Shown in pieces: positions 2,239 through 23,210 of a stretch of 64,000 bases of DNA. Position 1 is the first letter of the stretch, and each line of letters begins with the position of its first letter. Source of the stretch: Gimesia aquarii (GTDB lineage: Bacteria; Planctomycetota; Planctomycetia; Planctomycetales; Planctomycetaceae); assembly GCF_007748195.1 (NCBI RefSeq), contig NZ_CP037920.1, positions 3,349,501 through 3,413,500 of the forward strand. The letters run 5' to 3'. Below the pieces are notes generated by a model, which was not told where the DNA came from, ran no database searches, and worked only from the letters and a program-made list of their open reading frames with translations. Made by a program: the position numbers and the translations under genes.

Positions 2239-5200
2239 TTAAAACGGCACTAATTCTGTCTCATTTTGTATAGTCAAAAAGAATGAATCCGCTTCTTCAG
2301 GCGTGGAATGCTCACCGAGGTCAATATTCAATTCCCAGGATGGTAGGTTGCGAATACCGGGAGCCAGGGTCTCTTGCATCACTCCTTCTGCTTCATGATC
2401 ATAGCCTAACAGGTGGCCGAGTTCGTGCATGATGACGGACCAGAGATCCACTCGACCAGCGGCATCACTGTCGGGCAGGGCAATGAGGGATAAGTGACTT
2501 GACTGTTCGAACTCACTATGATCACCAGGTGTGTCATCAATAAACCAGCCATATCCGGCGGCATTAACATCGATGTAAATTGTACCGGTAACGGCGCGAC
2601 CTAATGTGTTTCCCGTAAGGTTAACGATTTCAATGTCGATATTTTCCAGTGTTTCGTTTTGGCTTGGAGTAAGCTGAGGACTGACGTATTCAACAACACC
2701 GTCCAATACTGAGTCGGCAGCAGACTGTGAAAGAGAAACTGGTGAGGTTTGCGGTTCAGCTTGAGACGTATCGGCAATCAATGGATTGTTCCAGGCTTCC
2801 GGGAAATTCTGAGGATAGGTAATCGCCGTTTGACCAAGCTTACTTTTGTTGTAGTTGCTCACAAACAAATTGAGATCTTTAAAGTCGACGCTATTGTTTT
2901 GATTATAGTCGGCAAACCAGGAAAGGTCTGAAGCAGACTCGCTGGGGATGGTCTGATAAACACTGGCGAACAGCATCAGATCTTTAAAATTGATTGCGTC
3001 ATCATCGTCGAGATCAAAGGGGTTCGCCCAAATATCGGCTCCTGCAAATTCTACTAAGTTCGTTGTGACGGGAATATTACCATCCAAATGGACTTGCTGC
3101 GAATTGATATTAAAACCAAGATCATAAGGGCCAATACTTCTGCCGGGAAGATCGAGTTCGACTTGGTCTTCTGCAAGGGGTTCAAATTTGATACGAGCAA
3201 ACAAAAGATGACCTGCAATTCCTAGTTCAGATGCATTTGTTTCGGCGAACAGACCTTCTACTGTTCCCAAAGCATCGTTAATTGTTCCTGCCTGATTTTG
3301 AGAGAAGCTTGCACCAAATTCGATATCAGTTGCTGATGTAAATTCTGTATGATAATTGAGATCTAGTTCTACGGAGAAAATTCCCTGATTGGTAGGACTG
3401 CTGGCATTGACCCATATTTCGACCCAGTAAGAAGACCATTCGGTAATGGAATCCTGATTTTCTGGAAGTAAATTGACTTCTCCGTTTGGTTGTGTATTTG
3501 TGGGTGAGTTGACAACACGCAAATCAATATTCGCTGAGGCAATGATATCATCTACAATGGTAACTTCTGCCTGATTGTCTGCAAATAAAACGTTGCGACC
3601 ATTCGCTTGAAGATTCGTTAAATTAACGAGAAACGTTTCATCAGCTTCTAACAGAAAAGAATCGATAATCGAAATCGTAATGGTTTTTGATTGTTCTCCC
3701 GGAGAGAAGTTGATCGTGCCAGACGTGGCCACATAGTCTTCTAGGTCAATAGCAGTTTGATCTGTCGTAGCAAAATCAACGTTGACTGTTGTGTCAACTG
3801 GCGAGTCCAGAGATACAGTCAACGTTGCGAATCCCGAATCTTCGTCGACAAAGATATCATCAATTGATATGCGGGCTTGATCATCATCGAAGATGGTGAC
3901 TTCGCCCTGGTCATCTGTGAGAATGACATCGGTGCCATTTGTTTGAAGGTTACTCAGATTAACGAATAAGAATTCACTGAGCTCTACGAGGTCATTATTC
4001 ACTATAGGAATTGTGATTGTTTGGGTTTGCTCGCCTGGATTGAAGGTCAGAGTTCCAGTTTGAGATAAATAGTCTTCAGGACCTGTCGCTGTCTGATCAA
4101 CCGTTTCAAAGTCAACAGTGATGATTTCTCCAACTGGTTGATCTAAGGATACAGTCAGAGTTGCAGTTCCAATGTCTTCATTGACAGAAATATCATTGAT
4201 GGAAATGGTGGTCTGGTCATCGTCAGTGATGGTGATTTCTGACTGCGAGTCTGCGAACGTGACATCAAGTCCGTTGGCTTGAATATTGGATAGATTGATA
4301 AAAAATGATTCTGTTAACTCTACGTCATCGGTATCGATTATGGGAATAGTTATGGTTTGCGGTTGCTCTCCCAGAGTGAAAACTAAAGTGCCTGTGTGGT
4401 GGAGATAATCTGTAGGATTTGTTGCTGAATTATCAACGGTAGCAAAATCGACGGTGACGGTTGTGTCCACCGGTTGGTCCAACGACACGAGTACGGTTGC
4501 AGTTCCCGCGTCTTCATTGACGGTAATATCAGTAATCGAAAACGTAGACTGGTCATCATCAACGATAGTTACTTCTGCCTGATCGTCTGCAAGAATGACA
4601 TCTGAACTACTGGTTTGTAAATTACTGAGAGTCACAAAAAATGTTTCATCAAATTCGACAGCGGCATTGTCCAGGATCGTGATGGTTATGCTTTTCGATT
4701 GCTCTCCTGGATTAAATGTTAAACTGCCTGATTGGAATAGATAATCAATTGAATTTAATGCTGACTGATCATCGGTTATAAAATCGATACTAACTGCTGT
4801 GTCGACGGGACTGTCTAAAGAGACGGTGAGAACCGCGGTTCCATCCATTTCGTCAATCGAGAGATCACTAATTGTTAAATTAGACTGATCGTCATCAAGA
4901 ATCGTGACTTCGCCCTGATTATCGGCGAATGTGATATTTGCACCGTTTGCTTGGATATTACTCAGGTTCACAAGAAATGATTCTGTAAATTCCACAAGAG
5001 CAGTGTCAGTGATATCAATAATGATCTCTTGTGATTGCATACCCGCATTGAAGGTGAGGGTGCCTGACTGGGCGGTATAGTCGTCGGGGTCGACGGCGAG
5101 CTGATCTGCGGTGGCAAAATCGACGTTGACGGTGGTGGCGACCGGTTGATCCAGGGTGACCGTGAGCGTGGCGGTACCGTCATTTTCGTTGACTGTGACA

Positions 5201-8200
5201 TCGTCGATGTCGATGGTCGCTTGCTCGTCATCGAGAATGGTGACTTCACCCTGGTCGTCGGCAAAGGTGATGTTGGCGCCACTGGCCTGGATGTTGGTGA
5301 GGTTGACGAGGAACGTTTCAATGCCTTCCACGATGTCCAGGTCATCGATGATATCGACGATGATGGTCTGGGACTGCTCTCCCGGATTGAAGGTGAGTGT
5401 GCCGGTTTGGGCGGTATAGTCGTCGGGATCGAAAGCCGTCAGATTATCGGTGGCAAAGTCGACGGTGACGGTGGTGGCAACCGGTTGATCCAGGGTGACC
5501 GTGAGTGTGGCGGTACCGTCATTTTCGTTGACGGTGACGTCGTCGATGTCGATCGTGGTCGCTTCATCATCGAGAATGGTGACTTCACCCTGGTCATCGT
5601 CGAAGGTGATGTTGGCGCCGCTGGCCTGGATGTTGGTAAGGTTGACGAGGAACGTTTCAATGCCTTCCACAATGTCCAGATCATCGATGATATCGACGAT
5701 GATGGTCTGGGATTGCTCTCCCGGATTGAAGGTGAGGGTGCCTGTCTGGGCGGTATAGTCGTCGGGATCAACGGCGAGTTGATTTGCCGTGGCAAAGTCG
5801 ACGGTGACGGTGGTGGCAACCGGTTGATCCAGGGTGACCGTGAGTGTGGCGGTACCGTCATTTTCGTTGACGGTGACGTCGTCGATGTCGATCGTGGTCG
5901 CTTCATCATCGAGAATGGTGACTTCACCCTGGTCATCGGCAAAGGTGATGTTGGCGCCACTGGCCTGGATGTTGCTAAGGTTGACGAGGAACGTTTCAAT
6001 GCCTTCCACGATGTCGATGTTATCGATGATATCGACGATGATGGTCTGGGACTGCTCTCCCGGATTGAAGGTGAGGGTACCTGTTTGAGCGGTATAGTCG
6101 TCGGGATCGAAAGCCGTCAGATTATCGGTGGCAAAGTCGACGGTGACGGTGGTGGCAACCGGTTGATCCAGGGTGACCGTGAGTGTGGCGGTACCGTCAT
6201 TTTCGTTGACGGTGACGTCGTCGATGTTGATGGTCGCTTGCTCATCATCGAGAATGGTGACTTCACCCTGATCATCGGCAAAGGTGATGTTGGCGCCGCT
6301 GGCCTGGATGTTGGTAAGGTTGACGAGGAACGTTTCAATGCCTTCCACAATGTCCAGATCATCGATGATATCGACGATGATGGTCTGGGACTGCTCTCCC
6401 GGATTGAAGGTGAGGGTGCCGGTTTGAGCGGTATAGTCGTCGGGATCAACGGCGAGTTGATTTGCCGTGGCAAAGTCGACGGTGACGGTGGTGGCAACCG
6501 GTTGATCCAGGGTGACCGTGAGTGTGGCGGTACCGTCATTTTCGTTGACGGTGACGTCGTCGATGTCGATGGTGGCTTGTTCATCATCGAGAATGGTGAC
6601 TTCACCCTGATCATCGGCAAAGGTAATGTTGGCGCCGCTGGCCTGGATGTTGGTAAGGTTGACGAGGAACGTTTCAATGCCTTCCACAATGTCCAGATCA
6701 TCGATGATATCGACGATGATGGTCTGGGATTGCTCTCCCGGATTGAAGGTGAGGGTGCCTGACTGGGCGGTATAGTCGTCGGGATCAACGGCGAGTTGAT
6801 TTGCCGTGGCAAAGTCGACGGTGACGGTGGTGGCAACCGGTTGATCCAGGGTGACCGTGAGTGTGGCGGTACCGTCATTTTCGTTGACGGTGACGTCGTC
6901 GATGTCGATCGTGGTCGCTTCATCATCGAGAATGGTGACTTCACCCTGGTCGTCGGCAAAGGTGATGTTGGCGCCACTGGCCTGGATGTTGCTAAGGTTG
7001 ACGAGGAACGTTTCAATGCCTTCCACGATGTCGATGTTATCGATGATATCCAGAACGATAGTCTGGGATTGCTCTCCCGGATTGAAGGTGAGCGTACCTG
7101 TTTGAGCGGTATAGTCGTCGGGATCGAAAGCCGTCAGATTATCGGTGGCAAAGTCGACGGTGACGGTGGTGGCGACCGGTTGATCCAGGGTGACCGTGAG
7201 TGTGGCCGTGCCGTCATTTTCGTTGACGGTGACATCGTCGATGGAGATTGTGGTCGCTTCATTATCGAGAATGGTGACTTCTGCCTGATTGTCTCCCATA
7301 ATGACATCGGCACCATTGGGCTGAAGGTTAGTGAGATTCAGGAGAAATGATTCATCACCTTCTACAATATTCACATCATCGGTGATATCGACGATGATGG
7401 TCTGAGATTGCACTCCCGGATCAAAGGTCACAGTCCCTGTTTGGGTAGTATAATCGCCGGGATCGAAAGCCGTCTGATTATCGGTGGCAAAGTCGACGGT
7501 GACGGTCGTATCAACTGGTTGATCTAACGAGACGGTAAGTGTGGCGGTACCGTTATTTTCGTTCACTGTCAAGTCACTGATTGATATGATAGCTTGATCA
7601 TTATCTTCAATCAGGACCGTTGCCAGACTATTAGAAAAAGTAACGTTCTCCCCATTCTGAATGTTACTTAAACTGATCAGAATGGATTCATCATCTTCCA
7701 CGAGATTATCATCAATGATGTTTACAGCGATAGTGTGAGACTGCTCTCCCGGATTGAAGGTGAGCGTGCCAGTTTGTGCCGAATAGTCATCTGGAGCGAC
7801 CGCTGTTAGATTCGTTGTGGTGTAGTCTACACTTATGGCGGTATCGACTGCGAAATCCAAAGAGACAGTCAGCATGGCTGTTCCCGCATCTTCATTCACT
7901 GATATATTATTAATTGAGAAACTGGCCGACTCATTATCCAGAATAGTGACCTCTGCCTGAGCATCGGCAAAAGTAACATTTGCCCCGTTGGCCATGATGT
8001 TGGATAAGTCTACAAGAAACCTTTCATCGCCTTCCACAATGTTATTATCGACAATGGAAATAATGATGGACTGTGACTGCTCTCCCGGATTGAAGGTGAG
8101 TGTGCCGGTTTGGGTGGTATAGTCGTCGGGATCGAAAGCCGTCAGATTATCGGTGGCAAAATCGACGGTGACGGTGGTGGCCACGGGTTGGTCTAATGAA

Positions 8201-11200
8201 ACGGTAAGTGTGGCCGTGCCGTCGTTTTCATTGACGGTGACATCGTCGATGGAGATGGAAGCTTGTTCGTCATCAAAAATGGTGACAATTGCCTGATTAT
8301 CTCCCATAATCACATCAGCACCATTCGCCAGAAAAGCAGTCAGATCGACCTGAAATGTTTCGTCAGCTTCCACAATATCAAGATCATTGATAATAGGAAC
8401 GATGATGGTTTGTGACTGTACTCCGGGGTTAAAGGTGAGGGTGCCTGTCTGAGCGGTGTAGTCGTCCAATTCAATTGCCGACTGATCCGCAGTGGCAAAT
8501 TCCACAGTGACAATTTCGTCGACCGGTTGGTCTAATGAAACGGTGAGTGTGGCCGTGCCGTCATTCTCGTTGACCGAAATATCATCGATGGAGATGGTGG
8601 CTTGATCATCGTCCTGAATGGTGACAATTGCCTGATTATCTCCCATAATCACATCAGCACCATTCGCCAGAAAAGCAGTCAGGTCGACCTGGAATGTTTC
8701 GTCGTTTTCTACCAGATCATCATCAATGAGAGAAACGAGTATCTGTTGTGATTGAACTCCGGGGTTAAAGGTGAGGGTGCCTGTCTGAGCGGTGTAGTCG
8801 TCCAATTCAATTGCCGACTGGTCCGCAGTGGTGAACTCCACTGTGACGGTCGTAGCGACCGGTTGGTCTAACGAGACAGTGAGCGTGGCGGTGCCATCAT
8901 TCTCGTTCACTGTAATATCATCGATGGAGATGCTGGCTTGATCATTATCTTGAATGGTGATCTCACCCTGATCATCGGCAAAGGTAATGTTCGCACCACT
9001 GGCCTGGATGTTGGTGAGATTGACGAGAAATGTTTCGTCAGGTTCTACCAGATCAGTATCATCGACAATGGAAATAATGATGGACTGTGACTGCTCTCCC
9101 GGATTGAAGGTGATTGTGCCTGATTGTGCGGTATAGTCGTCGGGGTCGACGGCCGTCAGATTATCGGTGGCAAAATTGACGGTGACGGTGGTGGCGACTG
9201 GTTGATCCAAGGTGACCGTGAGCGTGGCGGTACCGTCATTTTCGTTGACGGTGACATCGTCGATGGAGATGGAAGCTTGTTCGTCATCAAAAATGGTGAC
9301 GATTGCCTGGTCATCTCCCATAACCACATCAGCACCATTTGCTAGAAAAGCAGTCAGATCGACCTGAAATGTTTCGTCAGCTTCCACAATATCAAGATCA
9401 TTGATAATAGGAACGATGATGGTTTGTGACTGTACTCCGGGGTTAAAGGTGAGGGTGCCTGTCTGAGCGGTATAGTCGTCCAATTCAATTGCCGACTGAT
9501 CCGCAGTGGTAAATTCCACAGTGACAATTTCGTCGACCGGTTGGTCTAATGAAACGGTAAGTGTGGCCGTGCCGTCATTCTCGTTGACCGAAATATCATC
9601 GATGGAGATGGTGGCTTGATCATCGTCCTGAATGGTGACGATTGCCTGATTATCTCTCATAATCACATCAGCACCATTCGCCAGAAAAGCAGTCAGATCG
9701 ACCTGGAATGTTTCGTCGTTTTCTACCAGATCATCATCAATGAGAGAAACGAGTATCTGTTGTGATTGAACTCCGGGGTTAAAGGTGAGTGTGCCTGTCT
9801 GAGCGGTATAGTCGTCCAATTCAATTGCCGACTGGTCCGCAGTGGTGAACTCCACTGTGACGGTCGTAGCGACCGGTTGGTCTAACGAGACAGTGAGCGT
9901 GGCGGTGCCATCATTCTCGTTCACTGTAATATCATCGATGGAGATGCTGGCTTGATCATTATCTTGAATGGTGATCTCACCCTGATCATCGGCAAAGGTA
10001 ATGTTCGCACCACTGGCCTGGATGTTGGTGAGATTGACGAGAAATGTTTCGTCAGGTTCTACCAGATCAGTATCATCGACAATGGAAATAATGATGGACT
10101 GTGACTGCTCTCCCGGATTGAAGGTGATTGTGCCTGATTGTGCGGTATAGTCGTCGGGGTCGACGGCGAGTTGATTGAGGGTGGCAAAATCGACGGTGAC
10201 GGTGGTGGCAACCAGTTGATCCAGGGTGACCGTAAGCGTGGCGGTACCGTCATTTTCATTGACCGTGACGTCGTCGATGGCGATTGTGGTCGCTTCATCA
10301 TCGAGAATGGTGATTTCACCCTGGTCGTCGGCGAAGGTGATGTTGGCGCCGCTGGCCTGGATGTTGGTAAGGTTGACGAGGAACGTTTCAATACCTTCCA
10401 CGATGTCCAGATCATCGATGTTGTCAACGACGATAGTTTGAGATTGCACTCCAGGTGTGAAGGTGAGGGTACCCATCTGGGTGGTGTAGTCGTCTGGGCT
10501 GACGGCTGATTGATCAACGGTGTCGAAGTCGACGTTGACGGTCGTGGCGACCGGTTGGTCTAACGAGACAGTGAGAGTGGCAGTGCCGTCATTTTCGTTG
10601 ACGGTGACATCGTCAATGGAGATCGTGGCTATTTCATCATCGATAATGGTGACTGTTCCTTCTGCATCTCCCATTGATACGTCGAACCCATTGGCCATGA
10701 TGTTGGATAGATTGACGAAAAATATTTCATCACCTTCGATAATGTCAACGTCGTCAATGATGTCAACGACGATAGTTTGAGATTGCACTCCCGGGGTGAA
10801 AGTGAGGGTGCCTGTTTGGGCAGTATAGTCGGTTGGATTGAGAGCCGACTGATCAGCAGTGGCGAAGTCGACCGTGACAGTGGTGTCAACCGGTTGATCA
10901 AATGAGACGGTGAGTGTGGCGGTGCCATCATTCTCGTTCACCGTAATATCATCGATTGAAATGCTGGCCTGATCATTATCTTGAATGGTGATCTCACCCT
11001 GATCATCGGCAAAGGTGATGTTGGCGCCATTGGCCTGGATATCGGCCAGACTAACGAGAAATAGTTCCGTGTCTTCTACAAGATTATCATCATCGATGGA
11101 AATATCGATGGTTTGTGATTGCACTCCCGGATTGAAAGTCAGAGTGCCCGTTTGGGCAGTATAATCGTCTGGACTGGCGGCTGATTGATCGGCGGTGGCG

Positions 11201-13176
11201 AAGTCGATGGTGACGGTCGTGGTCACGGGTTGGTCTAATGAAACGGTAAGCGTGGCCGTTCCGTCATTTTCGTTCACAGAGATATCATTAATCGAGATCG
11301 TGGCCTGTTCGTCATCGATAATGGTAACTTCTGCCTGAGAATTTCTCATCAATACATTGAATCCATTGGCTATGATGTTGGACAGATTGACGAAAAATGT
11401 TTCATCACCTTCGACGATGTTAACGTCATCAATGATATCTACGACGATGGTTTGAGATTGCACTCCCGGAGTGAAGGTCAGGGTACCCGTCTGGGTGGTA
11501 TAGTCGTCGGGGGCCACAGCGAGTTCATCGAGGGTGTCAAAGTCAACGGTGACAGTCGTGGCGACCGGTTGATCTAACGAGACCGTGAGAGTGGCCGTTC
11601 CGTCATTTTCATTCACGGAAATATCATCAATCGAAATATTAGCCTGATCATCGTTTAATATTGTGACTTCAGATTGCTCATCAGCAAAAGTGATATTTGC
11701 ACCATTGGACAGGATATTGCTCAGATTGACGAAAAATATTTCATCTGCTTCCACAATATTATTATCGGTGATATCAACGATTATGGTGTGTGACTGTTCT
11801 CCCGGGTTAAAGATCAGGGTGCCTGTTTGGGAAGTATAATCGTCTGGGCTGGCGGCTGATTGATCAGCGGTAGCAAAGTCTACACTCACAGTGGTGGCGA
11901 CTGGTTGGTCTAACGAAACGGTGAGAGTGGCCGTTCCATCACTTTCGTCCACAGAGATATCGTCGATTGCGATCGTAGCTTCATCGTCATCTAAGATGGT
12001 AACAGTAGCCTGAGGATCTCCCATAATCACATCGGCATCACTAGTTAGAAGATTGGTCAGGTTAACCAGAAATGTTTCATTGCCTTCCACGAGATTGTCA
12101 TCACTGAGAGGGACTGTGATGGTTTGTGATTGTACTCCCGGGTTGAAGATCAGGGTGCCTGTCTGGGCAATATAGTCACCAGTAGTGAGGGCCGATTGAT
12201 CTGCAGTCATGAAGTCCACACTGATAGCTGTATCGACAGGATGATTCAGCGAAACTGAAATCATTGCTGTGCCGTCATTTTCATTTACGGAAACATCATC
12301 GATCGAAACAATGGCTTGATCGTCATCCAGGATTCTAACTTTGGCCAGCGTATCGGAAACAATCAGGTTGGAACTTGTGGTTTGAATGTTAGACAAACTT
12401 ACTAAAAATGTTTCCGTACTTTCCACCAAATTCGAATCGACGATGGGAACGTTAATGGTTTTTGATAGTTCGCCTGGAGCAAACGTCATTGAGCCAGATG
12501 CAGCAAGATAGTCATCGGGATTATTGGCTGTTTCATCAAAGATCAAAAAGTCAAAACTGACTTCGGTATCGATGGGGTTATCAAGAGAAACAACTACAGA
12601 TGCCGTTCCATCAAATTCATTCACAGTAATGTCATTGATCGATAGAGTGGATTGGTCATCATTTAGAATTGTGACTGTTGCTTCGCTATTGTCGAGAGAT
12701 GTCCCTGTGCTATTGTTAAGCAAATGGACTTCAAATGTTTCATTTTCTTCAGTTAAGACATCACCATTAACCTGAATTGAAATCGTTTGTGTTTGTAAAG
12801 TACTTGATGGATCTGCCGCGAAGTTAAGCGTGTTTCCTTGTGAAACGTAGTCAGCATCTACTGTTGTTGCTGTAGCATCTGCTGTTGTGAAATCGACAGA
12901 TGCAATACTATTGAGGTCCCCTGGAGCTGCGCCAGTTCGTGAGACTGTTAGAACGACATTAGAAGTGCCGGCATCACCTTCGACAAATGATACATCATCT
13001 ATGCTAAAAAGCGATGTTAAGAGTGTGCGATCTTCGAGCTGTTCGATTAAATTTCTATAACGGCCTTGAATTGTTTGATAACGTTTCAGTGAGCGGGAAC
13101 GTTGCTTGCTAAACGTGCGTGGGCGAGATGATCGACATTTCGAGGCGATTGACCTTAACCAGTTCGTCAACAACAT
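2239..13176 (-). CDS. Giant 3645-residue Calx-beta repeat surface protein with cohesin-like, dockerin-like and C-terminal metzincin protease domains
   Basis: A basic leader with LEDRTLLT near residue 47-54 precedes about 28 Calx-beta repeats of 112-113 residues (about 57-3208). Each unit carries a variant of VNENDGTATLTVSLDQPV, then DDYTAQTGTLTFNPG, then an acidic VTILDDE-type end. Calx-beta units usually bind calcium, and the acidic ends fit that. Residues about 3209-3370 look like a cohesin-type beta-sandwich. Residues about 3382-3445 contain two DxDxDxxxxxxD-like loops (DLDDDDAINFKDL and DYNQNNSVDFKDL), typical of type I dockerins. From residue 3584 reads HELGHLLGYDH, the HExxHxxGxxH zinc site of metzincins, followed by GVMQETLAPG as a plausible Met-turn. 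The protein is probably secreted or surface-bound, a calcium-stiffened stalk ending in a protease. No classical signal peptide is obvious and the Shine-Dalgarno is weak. Units in the middle are nearly identical at DNA level. Confidence 0.9.
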   Translation of the reverse strand: MLLTNWLRSIASKCRSSRPRTFSKQRSRSLKRYQTIQGRYRNLIEQLEDRTLLTSLFSIDDVSFVEGDAGTSNVVLTVSRTGAAPGDLNSIASVDFTTADATATTVDADYVSQGNTLNFAADPSSTLQTQTISIQVNGDVLTEENETFEVHLLNNSTGTSLDNSEATVTILNDDQSTLSINDITVNEFDGTASVVVSLDNPIDTEVSFDFLIFDETANNPDDYLAASGSMTFAPGELSKTINVPIVDSNLVESTETFLVSLSNIQTTSSNLIVSDTLAKVRILDDDQAIVSIDDVSVNENDGTAMISVSLNHPVDTAISVDFMTADQSALTTGDYIAQTGTLIFNPGVQSQTITVPLSDDNLVEGNETFLVNLTNLLTSDADVIMGDPQATVTILDDDEATIAIDDISVDESDGTATLTVSLDQPVATTVSVDFATADQSAASPDDYTSQTGTLIFNPGEQSHTIIVDITDNNIVEADEIFFVNLSNILSNGANITFADEQSEVTILNDDQANISIDDISVNENDGTATLTVSLDQPVATTVTVDFDTLDELAVAPDDYTTQTGTLTFTPGVQSQTIVVDIIDDVNIVEGDETFFVNLSNIIANGFNVLMRNSQAEVTIIDDEQATISINDISVNENDGTATLTVSLDQPVTTTVTIDFATADQSAASPDDYTAQTGTLTFNPGVQSQTIDISIDDDNLVEDTELFLVSLADIQANGANITFADDQGEITIQDNDQASISIDDITVNENDGTATLTVSFDQPVDTTVTVDFATADQSALNPTDYTAQTGTLTFTPGVQSQTIVVDIIDDVDIIEGDEIFFVNLSNIMANGFDVSMGDAEGTVTIIDDEIATISIDDVTVNENDGTATLTVSLDQPVATTVNVDFDTVDQSAVSPDDYTTQMGTLTFTPGVQSQTIVVDNIDDLDIVEGIETFLVNLTNIQASGANITFADDQGEITILDDEATTIAIDDVTVNENDGTATLTVTLDQLVATTVTVDFATLNQLAVDPDDYTAQSGTITFNPGEQSQSIIISIVDDTDLVEPDETFLVNLTNIQASGANITFADDQGEITIQDNDQASISIDDITVNENDGTATLTVSLDQPVATTVTVEFTTADQSAIELDDYTAQTGTLTFNPGVQSQQILVSLIDDDLVENDETFQVDLTAFLANGADVIMRDNQAIVTIQDDDQATISIDDISVNENDGTATLTVSLDQPVDEIVTVEFTTADQSAIELDDYTAQTGTLTFNPGVQSQTIIVPIINDLDIVEADETFQVDLTAFLANGADVVMGDDQAIVTIFDDEQASISIDDVTVNENDGTATLTVTLDQPVATTVTVNFATDNLTAVDPDDYTAQSGTITFNPGEQSQSIIISIVDDTDLVEPDETFLVNLTNIQASGANITFADDQGEITIQDNDQASISIDDITVNENDGTATLTVSLDQPVATTVTVEFTTADQSAIELDDYTAQTGTLTFNPGVQSQQILVSLIDDDLVENDETFQVDLTAFLANGADVIMGDNQAIVTIQDDDQATISIDDISVNENDGTATLTVSLDQPVDEIVTVEFATADQSAIELDDYTAQTGTLTFNPGVQSQTIIVPIINDLDIVEADETFQVDLTAFLANGADVIMGDNQAIVTIFDDEQASISIDDVTVNENDGTATLTVSLDQPVATTVTVDFATDNLTAFDPDDYTTQTGTLTFNPGEQSQSIIISIVDNNIVEGDERFLVDLSNIMANGANVTFADAQAEVTILDNESASFSINNISVNEDAGTAMLTVSLDFAVDTAISVDYTTTNLTAVAPDDYSAQTGTLTFNPGEQSHTIAVNIIDDNLVEDDESILISLSNIQNGENVTFSNSLATVLIEDNDQAIISISDLTVNENNGTATLTVSLDQPVDTTVTVDFATDNQTAFDPGDYTTQTGTVTFDPGVQSQTIIVDITDDVNIVEGDESFLLNLTNLQPNGADVIMGDNQAEVTILDNEATTISIDDVTVNENDGTATLTVTLDQPVATTVTVDFATDNLTAFDPDDYTAQTGTLTFNPGEQSQTIVLDIIDNIDIVEGIETFLVNLSNIQASGANITFADDQGEVTILDDEATTIDIDDVTVNENDGTATLTVTLDQPVATTVTVDFATANQLAVDPDDYTAQSGTLTFNPGEQSQTIIVDIIDDLDIVEGIETFLVNLTNIQASGANITFADDQGEVTILDDEQATIDIDDVTVNENDGTATLTVTLDQPVATTVTVDFATANQLAVDPDDYTAQTGTLTFNPGEQSQTIIVDIIDDLDIVEGIETFLVNLTNIQASGANITFADDQGEVTILDDEQATINIDDVTVNENDGTATLTVTLDQPVATTVTVDFATDNLTAFDPDDYTAQTGTLTFNPGEQSQTIIVDIIDNIDIVEGIETFLVNLSNIQASGANITFADDQGEVTILDDEATTIDIDDVTVNENDGTATLTVTLDQPVATTVTVDFATANQLAVDPDDYTAQTGTLTFNPGEQSQTIIVDIIDDLDIVEGIETFLVNLTNIQASGANITFDDDQGEVTILDDEATTIDIDDVTVNENDGTATLTVTLDQPVATTVTVDFATDNLTAFDPDDYTAQTGTLTFNPGEQSQTIIVDIIDDLDIVEGIETFLVNLTNIQASGANITFADDQGEVTILDDEQATIDIDDVTVNENDGTATLTVTLDQPVATTVNVDFATADQLAVDPDDYTAQSGTLTFNAGMQSQEIIIDITDTALVEFTESFLVNLSNIQANGANITFADNQGEVTILDDDQSNLTISDLSIDEMDGTAVLTVSLDSPVDTAVSIDFITDDQSALNSIDYLFQSGSLTFNPGEQSKSITITILDNAAVEFDETFFVTLSNLQTSSSDVILADDQAEVTIVDDDQSTFSITDITVNEDAGTATVLVSLDQPVDTTVTVDFATVDNSATNPTDYLHHTGTLVFTLGEQPQTITIPIIDTDDVELTESFFINLSNIQANGLDVTFADSQSEITITDDDQTTISINDISVNEDIGTATLTVSLDQPVGEIITVDFETVDQTATGPEDYLSQTGTLTFNPGEQTQTITIPIVNNDLVELSEFLFVNLSNLQTNGTDVILTDDQGEVTIFDDDQARISIDDIFVDEDSGFATLTVSLDSPVDTTVNVDFATTDQTAIDLEDYVATSGTINFSPGEQSKTITISIIDSFLLEADETFLVNLTNLQANGRNVLFADNQAEVTIVDDIIASANIDLRVVNSPTNTQPNGEVNLLPENQDSITEWSSYWVEIWVNASSPTNQGIFSVELDLNYHTEFTSATDIEFGASFSQNQAGTINDALGTVEGLFAETNASELGIAGHLLFARIKFEPLAEDQVELDLPGRSIGPYDLGFNINSQQVHLDGNIPVTTNLVEFAGADIWANPFDLDDDDAINFKDLMLFASVYQTIPSESASDLSWFADYNQNNSVDFKDLNLFVSNYNKSKLGQTAITYPQNFPEAWNNPLIADTSQAEPQTSPVSLSQSAADSVLDGVVEYVSPQLTPSQNETLENIDIEIVNLTGNTLGRAVTGTIYIDVNAAGYGWFIDDTPGDHSEFEQSSHLSLIALPDSDAAGRVDLWSVIMHELGHLLGYDHEAEGVMQETLAPGIRNLPSWELNIDLGEHSTPEEADSFFLTIQNETELVPF
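5040..7300 (-). repeat. Near-identical 339-bp tandem repeats (Calx-beta units 18-24)
   Basis: Inside the giant gene the unit recurs every 339 bases. For example, TGGCCTGG occurs at 5283, 5622 and 5961 in the same context. About seven units differ by only a few bases, while units nearer either end of the gene are clearly diverged. This suggests recent unequal crossing-over or gene conversion in the middle of the array. Assembly collapse or expansion is a risk here. Confidence 0.85.
8200..10164 (-). repeat. Higher-order duplication: two three-unit blocks of 1014 bp
   Basis: Units 9-11 and 12-14 of the Calx-beta array are two copies of one three-unit block. Matching points lie exactly 1014 bases apart: GCTTGTTCGTCATC at 8261 and 9275, and GATGTTGGTGAGATTG at 9007 and 10021. 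This block is distinct from the single-unit array at 5040-7300. Confidence 0.8.
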
Positions 13177-16806: not shown

Positions 16807-18177
16807 ATGTCAACATCTCGACAAATAACGCGCCGTAATTTCCTTCAGGGAGCTGCCTTCGCTGGGGCTGCCACTTTTTTTTGCCCCTCCGCAAATCGTG
16901 CTTTCGGATACCAGTCACCCAATGACCGTCCGGTCTTTGCGACCATTGGACTGAGAAACCAGGGCTGGGCGATTACTTCGAAGTCGTTTAGCTTTGCTGA
17001 TTTCGCTGCACTTGCCGATGTTGACTCGAATGTCCTTGAGACCAACGTAAAAAAAACAGAAAAGAAACAAGGTAAGAAACCAGACGCCTATAAAGACTAT
17101 CGGAAAGTCCTCGACCGAAGAGATATTGATGCTGTTATGATCGCCACGCCCGACCATTGGCACACGAAAATCGCGGTCGAAGCGATGTATGCTGGAAAAG
17201 ATGTGTACTGTGAAAAACCATTGACTCTGACGATCGATGAAGGCAAGTTGATTGAAAAGGTCGTTAAGGAAACCGGCCGTGTTTTCCAGGTTGGCACGAT
17301 GCAGCGATCTGAATCGGCACAGCGGTTTCTACAGGCCGTTGCTCTGGTGAAAGATGGACGCATTGGTACGGTTAAAAAAGTGACATGTGGGATCAACAGT
17401 ATGTCAGCTTCACCCACGATACCAGTTGCTCCAGTTCCTAAAGAACTTGACTGGGACTTTTGGCTGGGACCGGCCCCAAAAGTTGATTACCGAGCTTTAC
17501 CTAAAATGCGTAGGGGGTACGGTGGTGGTGTCCCGCTTTACAGCAATTGTCACTATGCCTTCCGAAACTGGCACGAGTACTCCGGTGGAAAACTGACCGA
17601 TTGGGGTGCACATCATGTTGATATTGCCTGCTGGGCTCTTGGTGCCAGCGACACGGGGCCGAGTAAGGTAACGCCGCTCGAATTTTCGTTGCCAGTGGAA
17701 TATAAGGATGGACATCCTGTGGTCAATGACCAGTACAATGCTGCTACCAAGTTTAAAATTGGAGTAGATATGCCCAACAATGTAGAAATGATTATCACCA
17801 GCGAAGGTGACAACGGCATTCTTTTCGAAGGCACAAAAGGTCGGTTCTTTGTTAACCGAGGTAAGATTGTTGGAAAGCCTGTTGACAATCTCAAAGACAA
17901 TCCATTGCCAGAAGGGGCTATCGAAGAGGTTTATGGTGGCAAAGTCAGCGCGAATCACACTGCCAACTTTATCGAGGGTATGAAATCTCGCAAGCAACCA
18001 ATTTCCGATGTCTGGTCGCATAATCGTATGCTTGAAATCTGTCATCTCTCCAACATCGCCATGCGTCTGGACCGTCAACTCAAATGGGATCCCGTTAAGC
18101 GAGAAATTATTGATGATACCCAAGCGAATTCGTTCCTCACACGAGAAAACCGTAAGGGTTACGAAATCAATATGTAG
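16807..18177 (+). CDS. Tat-exported Gfo/Idh/MocA family oxidoreductase
   Basis: This 456-residue protein carries a Tat signal with Arg9-Arg10 in ITRRNFLQGAAFAGAA, so folding with a bound dinucleotide before export is likely. The family signature ATPDHWHTKIAVEAMYAGKD leads into CEKPLT with Glu136-Lys137-Pro138, the conserved catalytic Lys region. GGKLTDWGAHHVDIACWALG marks the substrate-binding C-terminal half. The N-terminal nucleotide loop is unusual: GLRNQG stands where most members have GxGxxG. Members oxidise sugars or polyols with NAD(P); the substrate cannot be read here. It appears monocistronic and is followed by a strong terminator at 18284. A second Tat-exported member is at 41771. 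Confidence 0.88.
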   Translation: MSTSRQITRRNFLQGAAFAGAATFFCPSANRAFGYQSPNDRPVFATIGLRNQGWAITSKSFSFADFAALADVDSNVLETNVKKTEKKQGKKPDAYKDYRKVLDRRDIDAVMIATPDHWHTKIAVEAMYAGKDVYCEKPLTLTIDEGKLIEKVVKETGRVFQVGTMQRSESAQRFLQAVALVKDGRIGTVKKVTCGINSMSASPTIPVAPVPKELDWDFWLGPAPKVDYRALPKMRRGYGGGVPLYSNCHYAFRNWHEYSGGKLTDWGAHHVDIACWALGASDTGPSKVTPLEFSLPVEYKDGHPVVNDQYNAATKFKIGVDMPNNVEMIITSEGDNGILFEGTKGRFFVNRGKIVGKPVDNLKDNPLPEGAIEEVYGGKVSANHTANFIEGMKSRKQPISDVWSHNRMLEICHLSNIAMRLDRQLKWDPVKREIIDDTQANSFLTRENRKGYEINM

Positions 18178-18283
18178 TCAGTGTAGGTCAGGAAATAGAA
18201 TTCGCGGATTCACTCGGTGATTCTGCCACTCCAGCGACCGAAAGAGAGTTCTGAAAAATGTAGAACTTTACTCTACAGCTAGC

Positions 18284-18322
18284 AAAAAAGGACTTACGCC
18301 TCAATGACGTAGGTCCTTTTTT
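18284..18322. terminator. Intrinsic terminator, bidirectional in appearance
   Basis: Left arm AAAAAAGGACTTACG (18284-18298) pairs with right arm CGTAGGTCCTTTTTT (18308-18322), with one G-T pair and a 9-base loop. The A-run and T-run make it work as a terminator on both strands. It follows the oxidoreductase gene and sits next to the tRNA fragment at the island's left edge. Confidence 0.8.
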
Positions 18323-18329
18323 AGATGAA

Positions 18330-18390
18330 TACCGGAGGGGGGACTCGAACCCACACGGGGTTTACCCCCACTGGATTTTGAATCCGACGC
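18330..18390 (-). pseudogene. 3' fragment of a tRNA-Leu(CAA) gene: candidate attachment-site remnant
   Basis: Read on the minus strand, the anticodon loop, variable arm, T-arm and 3' acceptor strand of tRNA-Leu(CAA) are present, but the 5' acceptor strand is missing and the D-arm side is degenerate. A 55-base stretch (18331-18385) matches the intact tRNA at 23126-23210 at 51 positions. Two of the four differences keep a base pair in the variable arm (GGGG/CCCC here, GAGG/CCTC there). Its orientation equals that of the intact gene 4.8 kb away. This is the geometry left by integration into the 3' end of a tRNA gene. Confidence 0.7.
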
Positions 18391-18920
18391 ATGCATTGTT
18401 GAGAATCATTGTGTTTTAGGTTCAATGAGATTGGTCACAGGAATTTACACCGGAATATTACTTGGTCTGAGATCTATTGATATTACGTTTCAGATGCCAA
18501 AATTGTCACCAATTCCGATTAAGATTCTATTTGTTCTCGCATCTTGAAATTGAGTACGGATTCTCATAAATAAGTGAGGAACACGATTACAAACAGTACT
18601 TTCGGGCAAACACTGATTTACTCAATCGTTTGGAAGAAAGAACTAAAAATACCTGCAACAAAATCGGATTTTATTCTCACCAAGGTAGGCAATTTTGAAG
18701 ACTCGTTGCATCTCTCTGTACTAAATAACAGATTTGTTGTTGTGATTTTTTACAATAACGTTATCATTTGTTCTCATGGCCAAGTGGGAATCTGATTATG
18801 ATACCAACTCAAGTAAAAATATAAAGTGGAATACTTCAATAGGTTGATTGTTGCAGCCAGAAAGATTTTCTCATATATCATCTTTGTATAGATGATGACC
18901 GATACAGTAGCGAGGGCAGC
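18391..18920. other. Spacer upstream of the tyrosinase operon, no gene seen
   Basis: This AT-rich 0.5-kb stretch is unlike the GC-richer operon that follows. A plus-strand ORF of 73 codons at 18574 has no motif and no ribosome site. A hairpin (18877-18896) lies just before the tyrosinase ribosome site. Confidence 0.5.
18877..18896 (+). promoter_or_regulatory. Leader hairpin before the tyrosinase gene
   Basis: ATCATCT (18877-18883) pairs with AGATGAT (18890-18896) around a 6-base loop. It ends about 14 bases before the GAGGG ribosome site of the gene at 18921. It could influence translation or mark an operator. Confidence 0.3.
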
Positions 18921-20159
18921 ATGAGTATCGTTATCGAGGTTAATAATTCTAATGACTCCAGTGGTCGCTATCTTTCATGGGCACCAACGCCCTGCCGTGT
19001 TCGGGTTACTGACCCCGCCGGTGCAACAGGTCCGACTGTTAACGTTACACTAAGCGGGAGGTCAACGGCCACGGGGGGAGCAGTGGTTTTCCGCAAAGGG
19101 ACAACCGGAGCCTTCTCAACGACACTGAGTTTTCCCGTGCCAGTTTCTGGTTTGTCGGAAACATTCTTCGTCGCAGGGGAGTTCAGTAGGCCAAGCAGAC
19201 AAGACGGCGATGTTACGATCGAGGGGCAGGTTAATGGATCGAACTCAGGCCCAATCAGGATTCGGGTAATGGTTCGTGTTCGAAAGAACGCTAACGAATT
19301 GCGGGCTGGCGAGCGAGATCGATTCATCAACGCGATGGCGACACTCAACGACCGCGGATTGGGACGCTTCACTGACTTCAGAGAAATGCATTTCGGTGGT
19401 GGATTGGGGCAGGCCCATGGTGCAGCTGGGTTCTTGGCCTGGCATAGAAACTATTTACTTGACCTCGAACGAGAACTTCAGGCGATTGATCCATCCGTCG
19501 CTCTACCATATTGGAAGTTCGATGAGCCTGCTCCGAACATCTTTACCGAAAATTTTCTCGGAGCCCCCGATGGCTCCGGGTTCGTACGGTTCGCTTCAGG
19601 CCATCCTATGAATTTCTGGAGAACGGGGACTGTCACTGGAATCGAACGCAGATTGCGATTCTCTCGAACCGTGGCACCACCAGGTCTGTTGAACCAGGAC
19701 GAAACTTTAGGCCTGGGGCTAAATTACCAGATGTTCCGTGATATGGAGTTCAATCCGCACAATCGAGCCCATACAAGTTTCCGTGGTTTCGTTTCTAATG
19801 CCGCCACAGCTCCACGGGATCCATTGTTCTTTTTGCTGCATTGCAACGTCGATCGTCTCTGGGCTATGTGGCAGCATGAAGACAGTCGTCGATTTGATGC
19901 TTCTCATAGTGCTTCCTATGACAACCGACCGTTACCCTCACGCCAGATCGGACACAATCTGACAGACACAATGTGGCCATGGAATGGCGTCACTGGAAAC
20001 CCTCGCCCTCCCGTCGCACCGGGGGGAGATCTTGCGAGTTCGCCGATCGTCACAGCGCCGGGTCCATCGCCGCGGGTCGACCAGACTCTCGATTACCAGG
20101 GCCGGGTGTCGGCTATTAATCGCCTCGGCTTCGACTACGAAGATGTTCCATTTGCCTAA
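18921..20159 (+). CDS. Tyrosinase-family type 3 copper oxidase
   Basis: This 412-residue protein has a beta-sandwich-like N-terminal domain (about 1-115) and a tyrosinase core (about 125-345). CuA ligands are read as His157, His166 and His175 (MHFGG, AHGAAGFLAWHRNYL). CuB ligands are His280 and His284 (PHNRAH) and His307 (FFLLHCNVDRLWAMW), with normal spacing. Asn281 follows the first CuB His, a feature linked with monophenolase activity in the family. The usual HH pair before NVD is LH here. No signal peptide is visible, so it is probably cytoplasmic or exported by an unusual route. It likely oxidises phenols to quinones; the substrate is unknown. GAGGGCAGC precedes the ATG. It heads a three-gene operon with 20- and 23-base gaps. 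Confidence 0.88.
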   Translation: MSIVIEVNNSNDSSGRYLSWAPTPCRVRVTDPAGATGPTVNVTLSGRSTATGGAVVFRKGTTGAFSTTLSFPVPVSGLSETFFVAGEFSRPSRQDGDVTIEGQVNGSNSGPIRIRVMVRVRKNANELRAGERDRFINAMATLNDRGLGRFTDFREMHFGGGLGQAHGAAGFLAWHRNYLLDLERELQAIDPSVALPYWKFDEPAPNIFTENFLGAPDGSGFVRFASGHPMNFWRTGTVTGIERRLRFSRTVAPPGLLNQDETLGLGLNYQMFRDMEFNPHNRAHTSFRGFVSNAATAPRDPLFFLLHCNVDRLWAMWQHEDSRRFDASHSASYDNRPLPSRQIGHNLTDTMWPWNGVTGNPRPPVAPGGDLASSPIVTAPGPSPRVDQTLDYQGRVSAINRLGFDYEDVPFA

Positions 20160-20179
20160 TCCTAACAACGGAGAAATCC

Positions 20180-21031
20180 ATGGCTAAAAAGACTAAAACG
20201 CCGCGCACAACGAAACAGGTACTTGCCTTAGTGAAGGACAGGAAGAAGACGGTTAATGATCGGATTCAGGCTCTCTCTGAGATGTCGATCGCGGTTTGCG
20301 ACAAGAAGTCAGCGCTTGAGGGGGTTATCAACATACTGACTGATGTCGATGAGGAATTTGAGGTGCGTGAAGAGGCGCTTCGAACACTACAGGCGGCAAG
20401 CTTTAGCGTTGTGCGTTTTGAGTCTAGCCGACCAGCTTACGTGGCTGCACTACGGAAAGTTGCAAAGGACGAAAACGAAGCTCTTCGTGAGCAGGCTTTT
20501 GAAATCCTCGCTGCCCAGCAGGATGGTCAGGTCCAGCGGAACCTCATCAAAGGTCTGAAGGATCCGAATAAAGCAAAGATCGCTCCCGAGCGAGCCCTCC
20601 AGCTTCTTGCTTATGATTCCCATGCCGATGCATACGATGTCGCCCGTCATATTTTCGATGATCCACCCAGCAAAGAGGCAAAACGTGAGGCACTTCGTCT
20701 GCTCTCATCTGATTCAAAGGCAGTGAAGATTTTCTCGAAAGTGCTTCGCGACAAGGCCGAGTCAACTGAGGTGCGCCAGATTTGCGCTGCAGCACTGCAT
20801 TCACTTGAGCCGAAGACGCTTTACAGACAAGCGAAGCAAATCGTACTCGACAAAACGGATTCCGATAATTTGCATGCGACGTGTTTAAGCGCACTTACCT
20901 ATTTCAATGAGAAGCTGTCGGATAAGGATGGCAAGCTCGTCGATCATGTTCGAGAGTTGAAAACGAAGGCTTCATCTAAAGTTAAGAAACGAGCGAGTGC
21001 GTTCCTGAAACGCTTTGGTGATAACGACTAG
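20180..21031 (+). CDS. HEAT-repeat protein of the tyrosinase operon
   Basis: This 283-residue protein is soluble and almost entirely helical by appearance. It has successive units of about 30-40 residues such as EEFEVREEALRTLQAASF, ENEALREQAFEILAAQ and EAKREALRLLSSDS, the pattern of HEAT/armadillo-type repeats. It has a Lys-rich N-terminus and no signal peptide or cysteine cluster. Such solenoids usually serve as binding scaffolds. The gene follows the tyrosinase by 20 bases with a GGAG ribosome site, and the next gene, whose N-terminus also looks HEAT-like, follows by 23 bases. A role as adaptor or chaperone for the tyrosinase is inferred from position only. Confidence 0.7.
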   Translation: MAKKTKTPRTTKQVLALVKDRKKTVNDRIQALSEMSIAVCDKKSALEGVINILTDVDEEFEVREEALRTLQAASFSVVRFESSRPAYVAALRKVAKDENEALREQAFEILAAQQDGQVQRNLIKGLKDPNKAKIAPERALQLLAYDSHADAYDVARHIFDDPPSKEAKREALRLLSSDSKAVKIFSKVLRDKAESTEVRQICAAALHSLEPKTLYRQAKQIVLDKTDSDNLHATCLSALTYFNEKLSDKDGKLVDHVRELKTKASSKVKKRASAFLKRFGDND

Positions 21032-21054
21032 CAATTGGCATTAGGAGGTTCACA

Positions 21055-22635
21055 GTGACTGCGATTGCTCTTACGAAGAGTGCGACAGAAGCGGATTTCG
21101 TTGAGTCTGTCGACTGCCTAATTATAGCAGCTGACACTCCACGGCTCACCGAGTTGTTATCCGAAGAGCACCCTGTTTATTCGCAGAAGAGCACTGCCGC
21201 GACGGCGCGGATGCGCGCTTGGATTCTGGTCGGACTTGGCCGTATTGGACTCTGCCATGGATCGTTGATCTACGTGATCGAAGAACTTGATACCGGTATT
21301 GAACCTTATCTTGTCGCGGCGGCTGCGGTTGCATTGCGTTCCTATCCATCGAAAGAACGTACTTTTGCCCGCTACTTGGTACATGCAATTGAGAACATTC
21401 GCTATCACGATGAGCCAGTTAATTATGAGCGATATGGTGAGTATTCCGAGGATGAGAGCCGCACGGCGGTCACAGAGATTCTTGAATCATTGGAGTGGCA
21501 TGGGGCGGGTATGCTGACCAACGATGAGATGACGTTTCTTCGTGGTCTACCGGATTGTCATCAGGAGATCGTGAGTCGCCTGGCATTGCGAGCAGACTCG
21601 CACAGTACCAGTTGCTGTGAAATTCCAGAAATTTTCGGAAGGTTTTCACTCCCCTCAGGCCGACAAGTCAATGAAGCCGCGTTGGGGGCTGTGTTGTTTG
21701 AAGACCAAGACGGTTCAGTCTTTGGCTTTCGAGAGTACTTTAGAGGTACATCCTCTATCGTTGCATTCTTCTACACACGCTGCGATAACCCGTTTAAATG
21801 CTCTCTAACAGTTGCGAAGCTTGCGAACATTCAGCGCATTTTACAGAAACGTGACTTACAGCGACCAGTGCGTGTCGCCGCAATTACTTACGACCCTGAG
21901 TTTGATGACACTACTCGTATTCGGGTTTACGGTGCAGATCGTGGGATTGAATTCGATTCACACACGAAACTATTGCGTTGTATTCGCGGTATGGAGACGG
22001 TCCGAAAGTACTTTCGTTCCGGCTCGAACTTCATTGGTTCGTTGATCAACCGTCATCGAATCGAGGCATTTGTTCTCGATAGGAGCGGCGAGATTGTGGC
22101 CACGTTCCAGCGGATGAGATGGGACGAAGAAGAGATTATCGAGTTTGCGGTGGACCACGCCGAGGGCTGTGAATCGGTTCAACGAAAAAACATTAGTCAT
22201 GCGCGAAGTCACTTGCGACGGTTTTTCATGGGGCTGCTTTCAATACTGCCACCCGCGGCAGTTGCGTTCTTTCCCAAATGTCCTTTTTGCTGGGCCGCCT
22301 ACTTCAGTGCTGTGGGCCTTTCCGGGTTAGAGCTTGCTTATAGTCCGTGGTTCTATCCTGTATTATGGTTTTTTCTCTGTATCCATGTGGTAAGCTCAGG
22401 AATACGCTCGCGAACAACGGGGAAGTTGTATTCGTTCGTGATGGCTGTGGCGGGGGCGGGACTTTTGGTGTTGCCGGCAGGGCAGTGGTCGAAGCTGTTG
22501 GCGATTGGGTTGATCGGAACCAGTTCACTGATTGGTTCAATGGAGCATCAGCGATCACGACTCAAGACTACTGCGCGGTCACGATCAAGTTCTGAGTTCG
22601 TATGTAGTGCCGATGATAACGAAGAGACCCCATGA
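21055..22635 (+). CDS. Fusion of HEAT-like, SCO1/SenC-like and four-helix membrane domains (candidate copper chaperone)
   Basis: This 526-residue protein starts at a GTG with AGGAGG six bases upstream. Residues about 1-180 form alpha-helical HEAT-like repeats. Residues about 200-370 have the SCO1/SenC thioredoxin fold: FYTRCDNPFKC with Cys243 and Cys249 in the copper-binding Cx5C position, then ITYDPEFDDTTRIRVYG, then INRHRIEAFVLDRSGEI with His334 as a plausible third ligand. Residues about 390-500 contain four hydrophobic segments. The first holds FFPKCPFCW (Cys409, Cys412), a CPxC pair like those of metal transporters and vaguely reminiscent of MerC. SCO proteins deliver copper to enzymes. 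Fusion to a membrane metal motif next to a copper oxidase suggests tyrosinase metallation (inference). I know no named family with this architecture. Confidence 0.75.
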   Translation: MTAIALTKSATEADFVESVDCLIIAADTPRLTELLSEEHPVYSQKSTAATARMRAWILVGLGRIGLCHGSLIYVIEELDTGIEPYLVAAAAVALRSYPSKERTFARYLVHAIENIRYHDEPVNYERYGEYSEDESRTAVTEILESLEWHGAGMLTNDEMTFLRGLPDCHQEIVSRLALRADSHSTSCCEIPEIFGRFSLPSGRQVNEAALGAVLFEDQDGSVFGFREYFRGTSSIVAFFYTRCDNPFKCSLTVAKLANIQRILQKRDLQRPVRVAAITYDPEFDDTTRIRVYGADRGIEFDSHTKLLRCIRGMETVRKYFRSGSNFIGSLINRHRIEAFVLDRSGEIVATFQRMRWDEEEIIEFAVDHAEGCESVQRKNISHARSHLRRFFMGLLSILPPAAVAFFPKCPFCWAAYFSAVGLSGLELAYSPWFYPVLWFFLCIHVVSSGIRSRTTGKLYSFVMAVAGAGLLVLPAGQWSKLLAIGLIGTSSLIGSMEHQRSRLKTTARSRSSSEFVCSADDNEETP

Positions 22636-23125: not shown

Positions 23126-23210
23126 TACCGGAGGGGGGACTTGAACCCCCACGAGGTTTACCCTCACTGGATTTTGAATCCAGCGCGTCTGCCGATTCCG
23201 CCACTCCGGC
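23126..23210 (-). tRNA. tRNA-Leu (anticodon CAA)
   Basis: The minus-strand sequence folds as a class II tRNA of 85 bases. The acceptor GCCGGAG pairs with CTCCGGT, with a G-U at the first pair. The anticodon arm is CTGGA-TTCAAAA-TCCAG with anticodon CAA, followed by a long variable arm with GAGG/CCTC and a T-arm GGGGG-TTCAAGT-CCCCC. The 3' CCA is not encoded. It reads UUG codons. Its 3' end faces the tyrosinase island, and a partial copy lies at 18330-18390. Confidence 0.92.

Follow-up and report, generated by a model that had tools for sequence, protein, structure and literature searches.

In Streptomyces, the tyrosinase operon melC1-melC2 encodes a dedicated protein, MelC1, which in the cited passages is required to bring copper to the apo-enzyme and is described as a single small protein, with its gene upstream and with export through the Tat pathway (PMC3817396, PMC8375020). 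The Marinomonas pair PpoB1-PpoB2 includes a tyrosinase-operon membrane protein, PpoB2, which belongs to COG5486 and takes part in the transfer of copper to that tyrosinase but not to a different oxidase; the cited part of the account mentions no HEAT or SCO part (PMC2855505). In the mtoX-SCO1/senC-mauG genes of methanethiol oxidase, as described in the cited portion, a SCO protein coded beside one copper oxidase is proposed to mature it, and in some species SCO is fused to a second maturation domain; the oxidase (SBP56) and the fusion partner (MauG) differ from those considered here (PMC5739008). We analysed a stretch of 64,000 nucleotides of Gimesia aquarii (NZ_CP037920.1, positions 3,349,501 to 3,413,500 of the forward strand; hereafter the window), in which a tyrosinase gene is followed by genes encoding a HEAT-repeat protein and a SCO-like protein with a membrane part, named here the helper.

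The locus differs from MelC1 in having two unrelated partner proteins instead of one, both coded downstream, one of them with a SCO fold; most copies lack a signal-like N-terminus. No caddie gene was found beside the tyrosinase gene, where positions 18177-18921 contain no plus-strand open reading frame (ORF) of at least 80 amino acids, the rest of the genome not being searched, and in a Pfam scan the downstream partners gave HEAT and SCO family matches and none to MelC1. Scanning the helper and six CPxC membrane modules against Pfam gave no COG5486-type match, to what we take to be its Pfam model, and no direct comparison with PpoB2 was made.

We propose that the tyrosinase and its two partners likely form a dedicated copper-loading machine, in which the apo-tyrosinase, held by the HEAT protein, would receive Cu(I) from the SCO domain. 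Comparative sequence evidence strongly supports that the three genes belong to a single system whose client is the tyrosinase, because co-occurrence is exact in three samples, gene order is constant, tyrosinase-HEAT fusions occur and the partners change compartment jointly. Furthermore, we infer with some force that the system loads copper, since three features point that way: the SCO fold of the helper, its conserved Cys and His residues, and the copper oxidases neighbouring the CPxC module. An initial annotation of the window had proposed a tyrosinase copper-loading system of these three genes; the single unit and its client held, and copper loading keeps the inferential strength just given.

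Co-occurrence and distribution of the three genes

A scan for two peptide patterns, with one genome per species in 84,980 species, returned 38 loci: 31 with a SCO-type helper and seven with only a CPxC membrane module. Among the 31, a window-type tyrosinase lies upstream in 28 and a HEAT gene is present in 29, the opposite of a helper found mostly without tyrosinase genes, which the initial annotation had named as the outcome that would speak against it. Loci L025 and L028 are truncated by contig ends, and the tyrosinases of L030, L041 and L052 are broken up, either across frames or by a stop. Gene order is constant across the trio loci. According to record titles, the named hosts belong to Acidobacteriota, Pseudomonadota, Bacteroidota and Actinomycetota, and the trio travels together in at least four bacterial phyla. 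In addition, a homology search with the helper gave 1199 homologues, 120 of them listed, with scoring confined to the 7997 best candidates.

Phylum-wide, the helper was found in only one of 297 Acidobacteriota genomes, the sample centre itself, and co-occurrence, a check already suggested by the initial annotation, was therefore assessed in genus and family samples around trio genomes (named after the record titles of the sample centres). Eight of 195 Bradyrhizobium genomes carry the helper and the same eight carry the tyrosinase clade (335-678 bits; next best 79 bits); 57 have some PF00264 tyrosinase, which leaves 49 genomes with a tyrosinase of another kind and without the helper. The Sphingobacteriaceae sample shows the tyrosinase clade in six of 201 genomes and the full helper (at least 236 bits) in the same six, and five more genomes have pieces only: four CPxC modules and one decayed scrap. 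This scrap (L091, 4492-4950) records a loss of the operon; its HEAT and SCO remnants were recognized by profile, and the tyrosinase remnant was recognized by eye. In Variovorax, clade and full helper occupy the same four of 101 genomes. Thus across the three samples (497 genomes) presence and absence agree exactly: the full helper is in 18/18 genomes with the tyrosinase clade and in 0/479 others. Twelve of the 18 positive genomes, including the three centres, were already in the peptide-pattern scan; the other six (three Bradyrhizobium and three Sphingobacteriaceae) all show the complete unit.

Among 98 relatives of the window genome, a full-length helper was found only in G009 (44% identity), with tyrosinase and HEAT genes adjoining, and 18 others gave weak partial matches only. 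The trio was also found by profile match in all four plasmid records obtained (L120-L123), three of them typed as conjugative. Their annotations name a tyrosinase family protein, a hypothetical or HEAT protein and a SCO family protein; for the B. barranii plasmid the annotated tyrosinase is its C-terminal part only. In L052 one 675-aa frame joins HEAT and SCO, but it was discarded as evidence of linkage, being a likely frameshift product at a locus where tyrosinase and HEAT span several frames. A distance comparison covered 30 loci, without L097, and the correlated distances partly mirror shared species history; L025, L028, L030, L035, L041, L052, L054, L095 and plasmids L120-L123 were excluded, the reasons being truncation at contig ends, interrupted frames, absent partners, near duplication or a helper not listed as a frame, and, for the plasmids, their later addition to the set.

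That the helper is an ordinary SCO protein serving cytochrome oxidase, placed by chance beside a tyrosinase, is very improbable. Pfam and the plasmid annotations do name it a SCO family protein, and locus L035 has a helper without tyrosinase; however, the distribution over the 497 genomes, the constant gene order, the Cx5C spacing described below and the missing signal-like N-terminus in nine of 11 helper copies examined are at odds with such a role.

The tyrosinase, its HEAT partner and their compartment

The three genes of the window lie on the same strand with intergenic gaps of 20 and 23 bases, a layout given by the initial annotation and borne out by the ORF list. The tyrosinase matches PF00264 with an E value of 5.9e-30, and across the window genome (7.4 Mb in one contig) PF00264 matches are confined to this gene. 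His157, His166, His175, His280, His284 and His307 are invariant in 18/18 aligned sequences, the window's among them, so the six type 3 copper ligands claimed initially are present; the ligand chosen within the usual last pair is the one we take to be correct. With the six copper-binding histidines and the central domain both in place, the protein is a predicted monophenol/diphenol oxidase. It scored 95.2 bits against the Streptomyces MelC2-type model NF047834, below the equivalog cut-off of 450 bits. An extra N-terminal domain (about residues 1-115) gave no match in a Pfam scan and was modelled as beta strands in one relative.

The HEAT protein matches HEAT_2 at 40.0 bits, above the cut-off of 27.7. 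Tyrosinase and HEAT form a single chain in L037, L040, L049 and L097, and among the 120 homologues of the L037 protein listed, 30 are such fusions (L037 itself counted), scored as coverage of at least 89%. The L037 fusion was modelled with a mean predicted local distance difference test (pLDDT) of 92.5 and a predicted template modelling score (pTM) of 0.92, which suggests that its two halves sit in a fixed arrangement. The initial annotation had both HEAT regions dock the tyrosinase; the separate HEAT protein is the better candidate, because it is the one naturally fused to it.

HEAT repeats are general docking scaffolds, and the trio might instead have nothing to do with copper loading: the two partners could complete a functional enzyme complex, presenting a substrate or positioning the tyrosinase at the membrane. 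The single-chain fusions and the frequent membrane part of the helper fit such a complex. It gives no account, however, of why the SCO domain keeps its Cys and His residues without exception or of why CPxC modules adjoin a hemocyanin gene and a copper amine oxidase gene, and we consider it quite unlikely.

N-termini were graded by a hydropathy measure and not by a signal-peptide predictor. By this measure the window tyrosinase is not signal-like, and among 11 helpers only those of L092 and L093 are. In these two loci the tyrosinases, the HEAT protein and the helper all start with signal-like hydrophobic stretches (peak hydropathy 1.8-2.6), and both lack the membrane part of the helper; the nine other sets examined peak at no more than 0.8 (tyrosinase), 1.2 (HEAT) and 1.5 (helper). 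The three proteins shift compartment jointly, and the partners therefore probably meet. Because most copies examined lack a signal-like N-terminus and the membrane part is predicted to have its N-terminus inside, copper loading would probably take place in the cytoplasm, which would be unlike any SCO protein known to us. In locus L092 (3557-12299), one HEAT and one SCO gene are shared by three tyrosinases in tandem, which have signal-like starts and carry additional copies of the N-terminal domain.

The helper and a proposed copper route

The helper matches SCO1-SenC (PF02630) at 35.1 bits, above the cut-off of 22.8, and its predicted model contains a SCO fold. SCO1/SenC proteins have a CxxxC copper motif and a distal His. 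The helper has the corresponding His334, with putative copper binding, and differs from SCO1/ScoI in its Cx5C spacing, its fused helical and CPxC membrane domains, its predicted cytoplasmic location and its linkage to tyrosinase. The Cx5C site and the histidine pointed out initially are confirmed: Cys243, Cys249 and His334, with this spacing, occur in 52/52 aligned helpers, the window's included. Cys187-Cys188 is present in 51 of the 52. The CPFC motif had been placed in the first membrane helix, where Cys409 and Cys412 do lie in the first predicted segment; the CPxC pair is found in 48 helpers, the remaining four being gapped there and without a membrane part.

The model of the helper shows an alpha-solenoid with helices between residues 12 and 180 (block pLDDT mostly above 90), in the region where the initial annotation saw HEAT-like repeats; the window protein gave no Pfam HEAT match there, and only one of the 52 helpers has a HEAT_2 match (E 0.0076). 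That this region is a copy of the HEAT protein was tried and found unsupported, since profile comparison with hhalign gave a probability of 0.2%. The model is of low confidence around residues 371-430 (block pLDDT 51-58). Four membrane helices, as initially proposed, are likely; a plain hydropathy scan found four segments in L029 and L031 but only one clear segment (457-479) in the window copy. The charge bias of this part follows the positive-inside rule. MerC is a mercury transporter family, and eight of the 52 helpers match it weakly (PF03203, E values of at most 0.01, the lowest being 1.6e-4); the Pfam scan gave no PF03203 match for the window protein.

The membrane part is absent from L035, L051, L053, L092 and L093, and in 8/8 Bradyrhizobium helpers the match ends ahead of it. 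It is therefore optional and not the core, and the initial idea of a membrane part that moves or senses copper may survive as an add-on. We propose the following route. The HEAT protein would bind the tyrosinase in a fixed way, as the fusion modelled as one well-defined body suggests; the CPxC pair, where present, would take up Cu(I) at the membrane and pass it to the Cys187-Cys188 pair, from which it would move to the Cys243/Cys249/His334 site of the SCO domain and then to the dicopper site of the apo-tyrosinase held by the HEAT protein. Helpers without a membrane part would draw on another copper pool, which makes the SCO and HEAT parts the candidate core.

Stand-alone CPxC modules adjoin tyrosinase genes, according to Pfam, in L055, L057, L058, L087, L088, L089 and L109, and lie within tyrosinase-LodA-LodB clusters in L060 (2864-10417, read with Pfam) and L061 (3609-10330, read by eye). 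An arthropod-type hemocyanin gene ends 2 bases before the module of L056 (7902-10528), and a copper amine oxidase gene ends 14 bases before that of L090 (1267-3584), which is a weak match. A copper oxidase is thus adjacent in 11 of 14 cases, a count that includes near duplicates (L088 with L089, L108 with L110). Nine of 11 stand-alone rows have a CC or CxC pair ahead of the first helix. The L087 module scored 15.1 bits for PF03203, below the cut-off of 27.6. Tentatively, at somewhat less than even confidence, we suggest an unnamed family of small CPxC membrane proteins, mostly with a cytosolic CxC/CC tail, that may supply Cu(I) inside the cell to copper oxidases from unrelated families (tyrosinase, hemocyanin and copper amine oxidase), with a tyrosinase branch fused to a cytoplasmic SCO relay and joined by a HEAT clamp, an inward copper route for one cytosolic enzyme class. 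The weakly matching CPxC membrane proteins of L100-L102 are paired with DUF899 and come from genomes of the window's class or genus.

Several observations weigh against copper loading by the trio. Copper binding and transfer by the helper are deduced from its sequence; the membrane part is missing from the copies listed above; and the high pTM of a single chain supports, without proving, an interface between separate proteins. The intact helper of L035, a Nitrospira metagenome-assembled genome, has no adjacent tyrosinase or HEAT gene and its genome bin no PF00264. No copper oxidase adjoins the modules of L062, L108 and L110, and weaker relatives adjoin DUF899 genes (L100-L102) or other genes (L099, L111). 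Some tyrosinases of the Bacillus type become active without a partner, as stated in the cited passage (PMC9454253). Finally, Cx5C at the SCO site could mark a thiol-redox protein. The helper would then be a thioredoxin-like thiol-disulfide partner that protects against quinone damage or maintains cysteines in the tyrosinase or the HEAT protein in the reduced state, with electrons supplied by the membrane part. We regard this as unlikely, since the tyrosinase cysteine is replaced by Ala, Ser or Thr in five of 18 rows, His334 is universal in the helpers, and stand-alone CPxC modules neighbour copper oxidases from unrelated families. Such a histidine is required in a Cu(I) site but not necessarily in a reductase. 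Copper loading remains the reading we prefer.

Probable acquisition of the operon and its significance

The operon lies between an intact tRNA-Leu gene and a partial copy of its 3' part (Table 1). The copy is identical at 52 of 56 positions to 23126-23181, in direct orientation, and the longest exact match is 17 bases, compared with at most 15 in 200 simulated windows of equal dinucleotide content; the repeat was found by exact matching, a guessed tRNA 3' end as query having given no match. GC content at third codon positions is 0.51-0.52 in the three operon genes and 0.34-0.47 in 17 other window genes measured. Given the direct repeats, this distinct composition and the full helper in G009 alone among 16 genomes of the same genus, the sequence reads as an insertion of the operon at a tRNA gene. 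In the interval that the repeats enclose, no frame resembling an integrase was noticed, and no profile search for one was made there. A tRNA gene was found in five of 39 loci scanned and within about 1 kb of the operon in only L032, L052 and L097; tRNA-linked insertion is therefore not the rule. Consensus scans gave five promoter-like sites (5.0 expected) and eight terminator-like sites (5.3 expected). Elsewhere in the window, a minus-strand gene (2239-13176) encodes a 3645-aa protein with 28 Calx-beta repeat matches.

Table 1. Operon features and borders of the acquired segment, in window positions
Feature	Positions	Strand	Size or start	Basis
Partial copy of tRNA-Leu 3' part, upstream border of acquired segment	18330..18385	-	56 bp	repeat match
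Tyrosinase	18921..20159	+	412 aa	PF00264 match, alignment, hydropathy
HEAT-repeat protein, predicted docking platform for tyrosinase	20180..21031	+	283 aa	HEAT_2 match; fusion to tyrosinase in L037 homologues; L037 model
Helper: helical N-terminal domain, SCO-like domain and membrane part	21055..22635	+	526 aa, GTG start	
Helper helical alpha-solenoid domain	21055..21594	+	about aa 1-180	structure model
Helper Cys187-Cys188 pair, N-terminal of SCO domain	21613..21618	+		alignment
Helper SCO domain with Cys243, Cys249, His334	21673..22170	+	about aa 207-372	
Helper membrane part, predicted N-in and C-in	22204..22596	+	about aa 384-514	alignment, model, Pfam scan
CPFC motif (Cys409, Cys412), first predicted membrane segment	22279..22290	+		alignment
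Intact tRNA-Leu (CAA), likely insertion site of operon-carrying segment	23125..23210	-		ARAGORN

Among the results listed in a search of the open PubMed Central literature, no paper describing a tyrosinase-HEAT-SCO unit was found. Dedicated copper helpers of tyrosinases are already known in MelC1 and PpoB2; the present system, likely an undescribed one, consists of apparently unrelated parts and probably works in the cytoplasm. The finding bears on how bacteria metallate apparently cytoplasmic copper enzymes, free copper there being very low, and a mobile, partner-complete unit of three genes with natural fusions is an unusually testable case. It could help to obtain active tyrosinases, and it offers a rule for finding copper helpers, which is to look beside other orphan copper oxidases.

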